Shown: in pieces, positions 2,930-6,601 of the stretch
Layout of the letters: each line of letters starts with the position of its first letter
How positions within the stretch are numbered: the stretch's first letter is position 1
NCBI GenBank assembly: GCA_011391755.1
Contig: JAABPZ010000003.1
Location: 1-16,133 of the forward strand
DNA from: Methanothrix sp.
GTDB taxonomy: Archaea; Halobacteriota; Methanosarcinia; Methanotrichales; Methanotrichaceae
Direction: 5' to 3'
Length of the DNA stretch: 16,133 bases
The notes under the pieces: model-generated
The model's input: only the letters and a program-made list of their open reading frames with translations
Told to the model about the DNA's origin: nothing
Database searches by the model: none
Program-made: the position numbers and the translations under genes

Positions 2930-3799
2930 TCATTGCAGGCGGTCATGTTCCTCAAGGGAGATATCTGAAATTATGCTCAAGGCCAGATAACACGATTCCA
3001 GAGTAGATATGCCGCCGAACTGTGACCCTCTAAAACCGCCATTTGCGTTTTGAAGGGAGTCTATGAAAAATGCAATGCCTAAGGGATCAGGATTTTTAAC
3101 ATATTGTGCGATCCGGTGACCTGCATATGTGCTCTCAAGGGTCACTGAGCTAGCTGTGGGATTTCCCACATATCCCTTTCTGGTTGTGCAGCGTTTCAAG
3201 AAGTCTGAGATTTGCTCGATATAAGAGGACGACAAGGTGATAGGATAGCTTCTCTTTTCCATAGCGTTCAGAATCTCTATGGCTATGTAAGTGCTCATGA
3301 TATCCTGGCGGTTGCTCATATCGAGAAGCGCGAGGGTCAAGTTCACCAAACCGCTATCTATGCTGTCAGTAGCCAGCTCTATGCGCTTAAGAACTGCGCT
3401 CAAGGACGAAGAAAATATGCTCGACCCATACATCCCATATAATTCGTATTTGAAATAGAGAATGGGAGGCGTGGTTGGAACTGCGCAAGGTCTTTGTTGC
3501 TCATCACCTTTGAAGATCCACCGCAGATTTCCATCTTGATAGTCTACCTTTGCCCCGGCTAATTTCAAGCACTTCATGGCGTAGTAAGCCCCGTTAAAAT
3601 CGAACTGGTCATACTCGGACAGGAAACGGATTATTTCGCCATCTGGCGAATCTGCCTTTAGCATTTTGAGGCAAGCCAAGGCAAAAAATGTGTCTCGAAT
3701 GGTTGGCGGGAGTTCTCTTACAAATGAGTAACCGCTTCCAGCATTTTCTTTAATCTGCCTTTCATCGATGTACCGGATAAGGGCCTTTATGTCTGGCAT
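2930..3799 (-). CDS. prenyltransferase/squalene-oxidase repeat protein (alpha-alpha toroid fold)
   Basis: 289 residues from ATG 3799. The frame is open to an ATG at 3823, but GGAGG lies six bases before ATG 3799, so the protein probably starts MPDIKALIRYIDERQ. Repeats of the PFTB type are visible: GYSFVRELPPTIRDTFFAL near the N-terminus, an internal STYIAIEILNAM and LESTYAGH, and a clear QNANGGFRGSQFGG then LESCYLALSI at the C-terminus. These build the helical barrel found in protein prenyltransferase beta subunits and terpene cyclases. I do not see the zinc ligands of protein farnesyl/geranylgeranyl transferases, nor a DxDD cyclase motif, so catalytic activity is not supported and a binding or scaffold role is possible. 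No alpha subunit is adjacent. It converges on fdhC (70-base gap). Confidence 0.75.
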   Translation of the reverse strand: MPDIKALIRYIDERQIKENAGSGYSFVRELPPTIRDTFFALACLKMLKADSPDGEIIRFLSEYDQFDFNGAYYAMKCLKLAGAKVDYQDGNLRWIFKGDEQQRPCAVPTTPPILYFKYELYGMYGSSIFSSSLSAVLKRIELATDSIDSGLVNLTLALLDMSNRQDIMSTYIAIEILNAMEKRSYPITLSSSYIEQISDFLKRCTTRKGYVGNPTASSVTLESTYAGHRIAQYVKNPDPLGIAFFIDSLQNANGGFRGSQFGGISTLESCYLALSIISDISLEEHDRLQ

Positions 3800-3930
3800 G
3801 ACGCTCCTCCGAACAGGAGTCATCAGCCATAAGGGCGGTTTAGGGTGGACTCCATCACCACCAGCATCATTAAGTTAGTTGCTTTCGGATTAAAGTATTC
3901 CGGTGAGAATTTGCAATCTCTCGGATGTAG

Positions 3931-3945: not shown

Positions 3946-3973
3946 CTCAACTCGTAGAGCATGAGCACATCTT

Positions 3974-4032
3974 GGGCGATGGGGTCCGCCCAGGCAAGAG
4001 CCTGAACTGCCCAGTGGGCTGATGACACCTAC
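3974..4032 (+). promoter_or_regulatory. fluoride riboswitch aptamer (crcB RNA), copy 1
   Basis: The crcB/fluoride aptamer consensus is present in full: GGCGATGGGGTCCGCC for the first stem-loop, a second hairpin GCCC/GGGC (around 4009-4019), then GGCTGATGACACCTAC closing the pseudoknot. A small extra hairpin (AGGC/GCCT) lies in the joining region. The family binds fluoride through Mg2+ ions and switches on fluoride-resistance genes. The ends of the element are identical to copy 2 at 4451-4510 while the middle differs, which is the pattern of a conserved RNA rather than a recent DNA duplication. It precedes the glutamine-synthetase-domain gene. Confidence 0.9.
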
Positions 4033-4062
4033 TGATAAAAGAGACAAGCAGAACGGTAGGTG
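4026..4062 (+). promoter_or_regulatory. expression platform of riboswitch copy 1: CACCTAC against GTAGGTG
   Basis: CACCTAC (4026-4032), the 3' strand of the aptamer pseudoknot, is perfectly complementary to GTAGGTG (4056-4062), which is the SD of the downstream ATG at 4072 (or contains the alternative GTG start at 4060). Only one of the two pairings can form. Inference: without fluoride the SD is paired and translation is low; with fluoride the aptamer keeps CACC and frees the SD. Confidence 0.65.
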
Positions 4063-4071
4063 CAAGCAAAT

Positions 4072-4371
4072 ATGTACTCAGATGAACAGGTGCTTAAGGC
4101 AGTTCAAGAGAAGAAAGTTGAGACGATCCGGTTACAGTTCACAGACGTTCAGGGCATAGTAAAAAATGTTGCGATTCCCGACAATCGACTGGGAAAAGCG
4201 TTACAAAGCGGCATAGCTTTTGATGGTTCCTCGATTGAGGGCTTTGCGCGAATTCAAGAATCGGACATGATTTTGAGGCCGGATGTATCCACCTTTGCCA
4301 CCCTGCCCTGGAGATCACAGGATGGAGCCAATGAAGCGAGATTTATCCGCGAAATTTTTTATTTGACCTGA
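4072..4371 (+). CDS. stand-alone glutamine synthetase N-terminal (beta-grasp) domain, truncated GlnA
   Basis: 99 residues (103 if GTG 4060 is used). The sequence follows glutamine synthetase type I closely from the start: VETIRLQFTDVQGIVKNVAIP, FDGSSIEGFARIQESDM, LRPDVSTFATLPW. It stops at the end of the beta-grasp domain, at EARFIREIFYLT, where full enzymes (about 440-470 residues) continue with the DIYNPDG-type loop and the catalytic domain. All ATP, glutamate and metal ligands of the catalytic barrel are therefore missing, so it cannot make glutamine by itself. ATG 4072 has GGTG nine bases upstream. The reading frame is clean and preceded by its own riboswitch, so either a recent truncation or a retained small protein, for example one modulating the full synthetase, is possible. 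The intact glnA must lie elsewhere. Confidence 0.65.
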   Translation: MYSDEQVLKAVQEKKVETIRLQFTDVQGIVKNVAIPDNRLGKALQSGIAFDGSSIEGFARIQESDMILRPDVSTFATLPWRSQDGANEARFIREIFYLT

Positions 4372-4413
4372 TATTTATAATCATAAACCAATATAATTAT
4401 AAATTGAACCAGA

Positions 4414-4426
4414 TATTTTTATAACC
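4414..4426 (+). promoter_or_regulatory. putative TATA box of the second riboswitch transcript
   Basis: TATTTTTATAACC sits in an AT-rich stretch (4372-4426) between the glnA-like fragment and the second aptamer. A transcript start about 25 bases downstream would fall near 4446, directly before the aptamer at 4451. A second AT-rich box (AATTATAAATTG, from about 4396) is an alternative. Confidence 0.45.
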
Positions 4427-4450
4427 CTGATGAGCAATGATTTCGTGCTT

Positions 4451-4510
4451 GGCGATGGGGTCCGCCTGGGAATAAATGCCTGAATCGCCCATGTGGCTGA
4501 TGACACCTAC
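4451..4510 (+). promoter_or_regulatory. fluoride riboswitch aptamer (crcB RNA), copy 2
   Basis: GGCGATGGGGTCCGCC (4451-4466) and GGCTGATGACACCTAC (4495-4510) are identical to copy 1 and match the crcB aptamer consensus. The second hairpin is shorter (GCC/GGC around CATGT), and the joining region differs in sequence from copy 1. It lies directly upstream of a cation/proton antiporter gene, one of the gene classes reported downstream of fluoride riboswitches. Confidence 0.9.
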
Positions 4511-4538
4511 CAGAACATAGTTGGAGTGACTGTAGGTG
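4504..4538 (+). promoter_or_regulatory. expression platform of riboswitch copy 2: CACCTAC against GTAGGTG containing the start codon
   Basis: CACCTAC (4504-4510) at the 3' end of the aptamer is perfectly complementary to GTAGGTG (4532-4538), whose last three bases are the GTG start codon of the antiporter (4536). The SD GGAGTGA (4523-4529) lies in the 21-base loop between the two. The loop in copy 1 is 23 bases, so the geometry is conserved even though the loop sequence is not. This supports translational control by start-site occlusion. Confidence 0.65.
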
Positions 4539-6157: not shown

Positions 6158-6601
6158 TTATGTTTTCCTGAGAAGCTTCGCTACATCTTCCATGGAATTT
6201 TTCTCTCGCAAAGCCGCAAGCTTGGGTGGCGATTCTTGGAACAGTTCCAGTGCATTGAAAAATCTGTCCAGCACATCTCCGCTGTAGGTGGGTACCAGGA
6301 AGATGTGGGTATGTGGTATTCTCCTGCCCCGGGCGTACATGCAGACAAAGTCCGGATTCAAGGCCTTCATCATCTTTTCAGCCACGATCTTTGCCACTCG
6401 AAAGAGGCTGGCATTCTCCTCCTCAAAGAGCTCATGCCACCAGGGCACGTGCCTCTTGGGAATGACCAGACAGTGCCCTTTTGAGAAGGGGTTGATATCG
6501 AGTATGGCTAAAGAGAGTTCGTCCTCATAGATCTTGCAGCAAGGTGCCTTCTCTTCGATAATATCGCAGAAGATACATCCGTTCTTCGTTTCTTCGACCA
6601 T
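6158..6601 (-). CDS. HIT-family protein with altered histidine triad
   Basis: 147 residues from ATG 6601. The frame is open to an ATG at 6610, but AAGG sits nine bases before ATG 6601 and touches the other, so the inner ATG is preferred. HIT proteins are nucleotide hydrolases or transferases whose motif is HxHxHxx. Visible: a CIFCDII zinc-type CxxC (Cys9, Cys12), SKGHCLVIPKRHVP typical of the Hint/Fhit fold, and PHTHIFLVP at the active site. The first two histidines (97 and 99) are present, the middle one being the nucleophile in the family, but the third is Phe101. Activity may persist with changed specificity, or be lost. It follows the YkgJ-like gene by 39 bases on the same strand and converges on uspA with a six-base gap. 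Confidence 0.85.
   Translation of the reverse strand: MVEETKNGCIFCDIIEEKAPCCKIYEDELSLAILDINPFSKGHCLVIPKRHVPWWHELFEEENASLFRVAKIVAEKMMKALNPDFVCMYARGRRIPHTHIFLVPTYSGDVLDRFFNALELFQESPPKLAALREKNSMEDVAKLLRKT

Follow-up and report, generated by a model that had tools for sequence, protein, structure and literature searches.

Three fluoride aptamers in a Methanothrix locus and a predicted translational switch at their start sites

How could a fluoride aptamer placed ahead of an archaeal gene control that gene, and could the strand that closes the aptamer pseudoknot also cover the start site? This question is raised by the locus described here. The window, i.e., the whole stretch of 16,133 nucleotides that was analysed, belongs to a draft genome of Methanothrix sp. 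(1.5 Mb, 58% complete). An earlier note on this DNA had called riboswitch mechanisms in archaea little described, a statement to be qualified: one case has been determined by experiment and is presumed to be translational. In the accessible text of Born et al. (2021, PMC8241225), the fluoride riboswitch of T. kodakarensis is given as the only experimentally determined natural archaeal riboswitch, presumably translational, and the part of Hertz et al. (PMC11077080) consulted here also calls it translational. As portrayed in the available portions of these papers and of PMC11549558, which report on Speed et al. (2018; RNA in PMC4247193), it is likewise archaeal and fluoride-inducible, although its host is a hyperthermophile of another archaeal order, and the likeness is one of descriptions. 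Given this precedent, the concept is not new; the distinction of the window lies in an unusually clear anatomy and in the glutamine synthetase (GS) context.

Three aptamers in the leaders of putative fluoride-response genes

The earlier note had recognized two crcB aptamers on the plus strand (47.6 and 48.5 bits) and overlooked a third on the minus strand. A search with cmscan places RF01734 aptamers at 3807-3868(-), 3966-4038(+), and 4442-4516(+), all above the curated cut-off of 34 bits. The features to which the text refers are as follows (window coordinates).

2930..3799, minus strand: alpha/alpha toroid (PF00432-like) protein, 289 aa; PF00432 28.9 bits, cut-off 26.5
3797..3810, minus strand: GGAGGAG Shine-Dalgarno (3810-3804) and ATG (3799-3797), both within a predicted hairpin
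3807..3868, minus strand: fluoride aptamer, minus copy (RF01734), 55.5 bits, best score of the three
3853-3848 and 3821-3816, minus strand: pseudoknot of the minus copy, GGAGTC with GACTCC, 6 of 6 pairs
3966..4038, plus strand: fluoride aptamer copy 1 (RF01734), 47.6 bits
3981-3986 and 4024-4029, plus strand: pseudoknot of copy 1, GGGGTC with GACACC, 5 of 6 pairs
4026..4032, plus strand: CACCTAC of copy 1, end of the 3' pseudoknot strand with UAC tail; 5' arm of the alternative hairpin
4056..4062, plus strand: GTAGGTG of copy 1, 3' arm; AGGTG probably serves as Shine-Dalgarno for ATG 4072
4072..4371, plus strand: glnA 5' remnant, 99 aa, beta-grasp domain only
4416..4424, plus strand: TATA-like TTTTTATAA, read by eye some 31 nt upstream of P1 in copy 2
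4442..4516, plus strand: fluoride aptamer copy 2 (RF01734), 48.5 bits
4457-4462 and 4502-4507, plus strand: pseudoknot of copy 2, GGGGTC with GACACC, 5 of 6 pairs
4504..4510, plus strand: CACCTAC of copy 2, 5' arm of the alternative hairpin
4532..4538, plus strand: GTAGGTG of copy 2, 3' arm; holds the GTG start (4536-4538), with GGAG (4523-4526) in the loop
4536..5651, plus strand: CPA2-type monovalent cation:proton antiporter (PF00999), 371 aa

The three aptamers occupy the 5' leaders of putative fluoride-response genes, antiporters being a known class of these. Downstream of the pseudoknot strand, possible starts come after 16 nt for the toroid protein, 30 or 42 nt for the glnA remnant, and 28 nt for the antiporter. 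The toroid protein of the window has no NCBIfam match and no sequence match in the PDB, and the CPA2 typing of the antiporter relies on TIGR00932 at 97.6 bits, under its cut-off of 238.3. A universal stress protein (PF00582, 5705-6151) is encoded directly downstream of the antiporter. TATA-like boxes, read by eye, precede all three aptamers, a scan favouring other sites for two of them (for copy 2, one further upstream than 4416..4424); among 134 dereplicated archaeal leaders, 46 have a TATA-like peak 26-35 nt before P1. With such boxes ahead of P1, the mRNAs would begin near the aptamers.

Similar sets of switches are found in relatives. The closest carrier, a genome of the same genus (G030), has three switches arranged alike, and the glnA that stands between its copies 1 and 2 is full-length. 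The window is 97-98% identical to this genome outside a 1127-bp deletion at 4352/4353, which removes most of glnA and leaves the riboswitch intact; this deletion may be an assembly error. In G039, also of this genus, and in G012, of another genus, toroid protein and antiporter are accompanied by a third switch ahead of enolase (32.8 bits in G012, under the cut-off), while G014, which shares the genus of G012, has the toroid and antiporter switches and G047 has three switches on separate contigs. The third aptamers of G039 and G012 (L044, L045) have a shifted strand, GACCAC, and a CUACC/GGUAG hairpin; they lie more than 200 nt ahead of enolase, with no gene identified in between.

A strand predicted to be shared between pseudoknot and start site

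The positions given earlier for CACCTAC (4026-4032, 4504-4510) and GTAGGTG (4056-4062, 4532-4538), with loops of 23 and 21 nt, were confirmed. On both strands of the window GTAGGTG occurs 6 times against 0.72 expected, a count reached by 0 of 200 shuffles; 4 of the 6 occurrences are the two CACCTAC/GTAGGTG pairs, and those at 6284 and 10966 are unrelated. CACCTAC had been taken as the strand closing the pseudoknot, which is right for its first part, the end of the strand GACACC, whereas UAC is a tail outside the pseudoknot. The GTG start of the antiporter does lie inside GTAGGTG, as claimed, and the N-terminus of its relatives (V/MAVDLY) supports this start. For copy 1 the note had left a choice between a Shine-Dalgarno and a GTG start: AGGTG is the likely Shine-Dalgarno, with the in-frame GTG at 4060 as an alternative start, and the glnA relatives begin at the Met of ATG 4072 (MYS...).

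For all three copies, folding predicts that a strand of the aptamer is common to a hairpin covering the Shine-Dalgarno or the start codon. In the minus copy, the 3' half of the aptamer, GGCUGAUGACUCCU, pairs in the predicted hairpin with the segment carrying Shine-Dalgarno and AUG, so that both start signals of the toroid protein would be hidden; the fold of this segment (-20.3 kcal/mol, z -3.8) is equalled by 0 of 200 shuffles. The helix of copy 1 can reach 9 bp (CACCUACUG/CGGUAGGUG, one G-U) and is predicted to hide the Shine-Dalgarno of the truncated glnA, with a segment fold of -11.9 kcal/mol (z -2.2; 4 of 200 shuffles equally good). Copy 2 is predicted to mask the GTG start of the antiporter, its segment fold of -10.9 kcal/mol being not exceptional (z -0.1; 85 of 200 shuffles as good). 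The expected numbers of pairs made by the pseudoknot strand into the start site are 5.0 (minus copy), 4.9 (copy 1), and 4.0 (copy 2). The antiporter helix is kept in G030 and G039; in G012 and G014 it takes the form CACCUACUA/UAGUAGGUG (9 bp), the G012 version being the one folded, and the degenerate antiporter copy of G047 is without the complement. Unlike the window's, the leaders of the toroid gene in G012 and G014 are not predicted to hide the start (0.1 and 0.0 pseudoknot-strand pairs).

The pseudoknot of copies 1 and 2, GGGGUC/GACACC, contains one mismatch, A opposite G, which had escaped the earlier note and which sets these copies apart from the RF01734 description, with which the leaders studied here share motif, score, pseudoknot, and the antiporter, crcB, and enolase contexts. 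Among 227 archaeal leaders, 6/6 pairs are formed in 208, 5/6 in 12, and 4/6 in 1, the pseudoknot being not located in 6. Nine of the 12 leaders with 5 of 6 pairs belong to the window's family (f1), and in eight of them the A stands at one and the same position, facing G or C, while the remaining one has the shifted strand GACCAC. The mismatch is thus maintained in eight leaders from three f1 genera, even where the partner base has changed (GGGGUC, GGCGUC). By nearest-neighbour duplex energy, GGGGUC/GACACC comes to -3.3 kcal/mol versus -8.1 for a hypothetical full match, and the mismatched A of CACC is predicted to be paired within the start-site helix of copies 1 and 2. The mismatch therefore probably weakens the aptamer state by about 5 kcal/mol, which would bias the switch to OFF: the aptamer would sacrifice one pseudoknot pair, with the A engaged in the start-site helix instead. 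In the accessible part of Hertz et al. (PMC11077080), a weak (wobble) first pseudoknot pair is described as needed for switching in two bacterial examples, and it may be that the mismatch of the window plays a comparable part; the analogy is our own.

The reading that we consider likely is a fluoride-ON translational switch acting by unmasking of the start site. Each of the three mRNAs would start with a fluoride aptamer. When fluoride is absent, the 3' pseudoknot strand would quit the aptamer and pair downstream with the ribosome-binding signals (the Shine-Dalgarno for copy 1, the GUG start for copy 2, Shine-Dalgarno and start codon together for the minus copy), and translation is proposed to be low as these signals are masked. 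Fluoride with Mg2+ would lock the strand in the pseudoknot and free the start site, so that the pseudoknot strand would be protected and GUAGGUG (or GGAGGAGCGUCAUG) exposed. The toroid protein and the antiporter would be switched on by fluoride, as would glutamine synthetase in the relatives with an intact gene. We infer here the direction of switching, translation as its level, and a kinetic (co-transcriptional) choice between the two folds. An OFF switch was dropped as a candidate, as it would silence the antiporter under fluoride. If the reading is correct, this methanogen genus offers a readable and testable translational switch three times within about 700 bases, and the part of the start site that is predicted to be controlled differs from copy to copy.

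Own and exchanged partners in archaeal leaders

The comparison was extended to RF01734 matches, which occur in 7 of the 50 family genomes searched, in 45 of 237 at class level, in 80 of 392 sampled from the phylum, and, for the order of G474, in 71 of 232. The analysis took in 262 of the matches listed, 227 with scores of at least 34 bits; G177, G571, and G670:C265 (each above 34 bits) and a number of weaker matches were left out. Dereplication gave 134 leaders of 220 at 34 bits or more and, in a smaller set, 102 of 156 usable at 30 bits or more. Start codons were picked by a simple rule, and start hiding was counted in the 108 of 149 leaders whose annotated start is 10 to 75 nt distant.

Whether other archaeal leaders show excess complementarity was the check proposed in the earlier note, and the answer is positive on average. 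Between the 3' pseudoknot strand with 4 further nt and the 56 nt that follow it in the same leader, the duplex energy comes to -7.19 kcal/mol; swapping partners among the 134 leaders gives -6.62 (sd 0.13), with z -4.4 and 0 of 500 swaps reaching the value of the own partners. The difference persists with swaps within family (z -3.3, 0 of 500) and within first-gene class (z -2.6, 3 of 500). For the six controls, namely the reversed strand, the complemented strand, the P1 and P3 segments, the upstream flank, and a region about 150 nt downstream, z ranged from -0.5 to -1.9; two of them are nominally low, the reversed strand (14 of 500) and the upstream flank (25 of 500), so that a small part of the excess is composition. 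The smaller set of 102 leaders agrees (0 of 300 swaps, 0 of 40 dinucleotide shuffles; one control at 7 of 300). Perfect complements of at least 5 nt are present in 50 of 134 leaders against 38.8 when swapped, with 2 of 500 swaps reaching 50. At 7 nt or more there is no excess (3 of 134 against 2.1 swapped; 170 of 500), and two of the three belong to the window's family, so that the perfect GTAGGTG-like partner is a property of that family rather than of archaea at large. The 7-nt tail alone gives no own-over-swapped signal, and none of the single gene classes is convincing, the lowest being the dynamin-like class (22 of 500) and crcB giving none (z 0.3). In the crcB leaders of f24, f25, f34, and f37 (for example L146, L148, L161), presumably haloarchaeal, the AUG mostly stands about 12-20 nt past the pseudoknot, often without a Shine-Dalgarno, and any control of the start site there must therefore differ.

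A start hidden by at least 3 pseudoknot-strand pairs is predicted in 53 of 108 leaders, or 26 of 63 after dereplication. Of these 63, a mean of 9.7 are hidden with shuffled downstream sequence (max 15, 40 runs), 14.9 with a scrambled pseudoknot strand (max 21, 40 runs), and 21.4 with swapped leaders (60 swaps), whose maximum of 27 exceeds the observed 26. Start-site accessibility with the pseudoknot strand blocked shows no excess over 62 leaders (0.045 own, 0.056 permuted); this measure blocks six bases only and the tail still pairs, for which reason pair counts and duplex energies were preferred. Own pairing is thus above swapped pairing on average, with a modest effect, and a large part of the pairing is generic. 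ON-switching by unmasking fits the anatomy of the three copies, the antiporter leader of the second genus, and the average excess, while the modest size of the excess and the null accessibility result weigh against it, so that the interpretation in the earlier note is supported in part.

The generic part is what would be expected if the complementarity were a by-product. CUCC and CACCU, present in the 3' pseudoknot strand, resemble the 3' end of 16S rRNA; any nearby Shine-Dalgarno would then pair with the strand as with an anti-Shine-Dalgarno, and regulation would proceed otherwise. That an average of 21.4 of the 63 starts are hidden even by swapped leaders indicates that much of the pairing is such likeness, and in the CUUC class the matching GAAG (22 of 68) is no commoner than GGTG, GGTA, or GGCG (20 to 22 of 68). 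However, own pairing surpasses that of all 500 swaps, in the window's family a helix of 7-9 bp reaches beyond the Shine-Dalgarno, and the start codon is itself predicted to be paired in copy 2, as is the AUG in the minus copy. We therefore regard a by-product as unlikely, though it is the strongest of the alternatives.

Fluoride could instead act on transcription attenuation or on mRNA stability, and not on ribosome access. Many bacterial fluoride riboswitches are terminators according to the available text of PMC13273304 and PMC2864571, and U-rich stretches stand right behind the pseudoknot in some of the leaders analysed. In B. cereus and T. petrophila, as presented in the portions of PMC11077080 and PMC13273304 at hand, the 3' pseudoknot strand is likewise common to the aptamer and the expression platform, but it is exchanged with a terminator, whereas in the window copies the exchange is predicted to be with a start-site hairpin. 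Inspection of the window sequence finds no U-run, as would mark an intrinsic terminator, after any of the three hairpins, and a terminator was dropped on this ground; the 3' arms of the hairpins, moreover, coincide with start signals. Attenuation or stability control is accordingly judged improbable. The fluoride riboswitches of P. syringae and Burkholderia are, in the excerpted text of PMC13273304, likewise without termination and taken as translational; these are bacterial, and they are likened by description, not by sequence. That copies 1 and 2 are decaying aptamers with poor or absent fluoride binding, as the mismatch, the truncated glnA, and the degenerate antiporter copy of G047 might suggest, is very improbable, since the mismatch is retained in eight leaders of three genera even with a changed partner base and both scores remain above the cut-off.

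Glutamine synthetase and other genes behind the aptamers

Glutamine synthetase is the first gene of 8 of the 227 leaders: in f1 those of G000 (the remnant of the window), G030, and G047, and in f17, of another class, those of G474, G534, G641, G645, and G656. All seven carriers besides the window have a further GS, so that the fluoride-linked copies are extra paralogs; in the window's genome (58% complete), the remnant of glnA was found and no further GS. A tree of 36 GS sequences, from which the remnant was left out, requires three changes of the fluoride-link label, and one change is seen in 0% of 200 bootstraps; the three may nevertheless equal one gain and two losses, and gene conversion could mimic them too. 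Of 103 columns without variation in 29 other GS rows, the seven fluoride-linked enzymes keep nearly all, deviating at 0 to 4; the G047 sequence, which is ended by a contig edge, has 10 gaps besides. Among 20 of 45 GS loci scanned with cmscan, fluoride aptamers were found only at L179, the fluoride-linked copy of G030, and the other eight archaeal loci of these 20 have none. We lean slightly towards the view that GS is a physiologically important fluoride target in methanogenic archaea and that separate lineages have put a duplicated copy under a fluoride riboswitch, as an inducible back-up of ammonium assimilation. A literature search by that topic found no report of fluoride inhibiting GS, and the sensitivity of the enzyme is therefore presumed here. 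We found no paper linking the fluoride riboswitch to GS, the two terms co-occurring in one paper, where they are unrelated, so that this context is new as far as the literature was searched; Baker et al. (2012) and Speed et al. (2018) lay outside that search.

The first genes behind the 227 aptamers are, by number, the toroid protein (48, the commonest), CrcB (41), a dynamin-like GTPase (38), antiporters (29), enolase (15), GS (8), thermosome (5), MFS (4), coenzyme F420 ligase (3), an NADH-dehydrogenase-like subunit (3), and NUDIX (2), with 31 outside the named classes; classes were assigned by Pfam on one or two representatives each and by phmmer for the remainder. The contexts named in the available text of PMC11139923 and PMC2864571 are exporters, antiporters, enolase, mutS, and formate hydrogen lyase. 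In comparison with RF01734, the toroid protein, the dynamin-like GTPase, and GS stand out as linked genes in this archaeal phylum, and the survey offers GS, the dynamin-like GTPase, coenzyme F420 ligase, thermosome, and the toroid protein as candidate fluoride targets. A "MutS-like" label for one frequent class was rejected, the representative being a dynamin-like GTPase by Pfam PF00350 (found in the one member scanned, L103:1232-2992); this class is found mainly in the order of G474. Islands with 6 to 8 aptamer matches per about 12 to 14 kb (L099 at G474:C16:68000-84000, L109 in G534, L263 in G641) carry GS, coenzyme F420 ligase, MFS, and other fluoride-linked genes.
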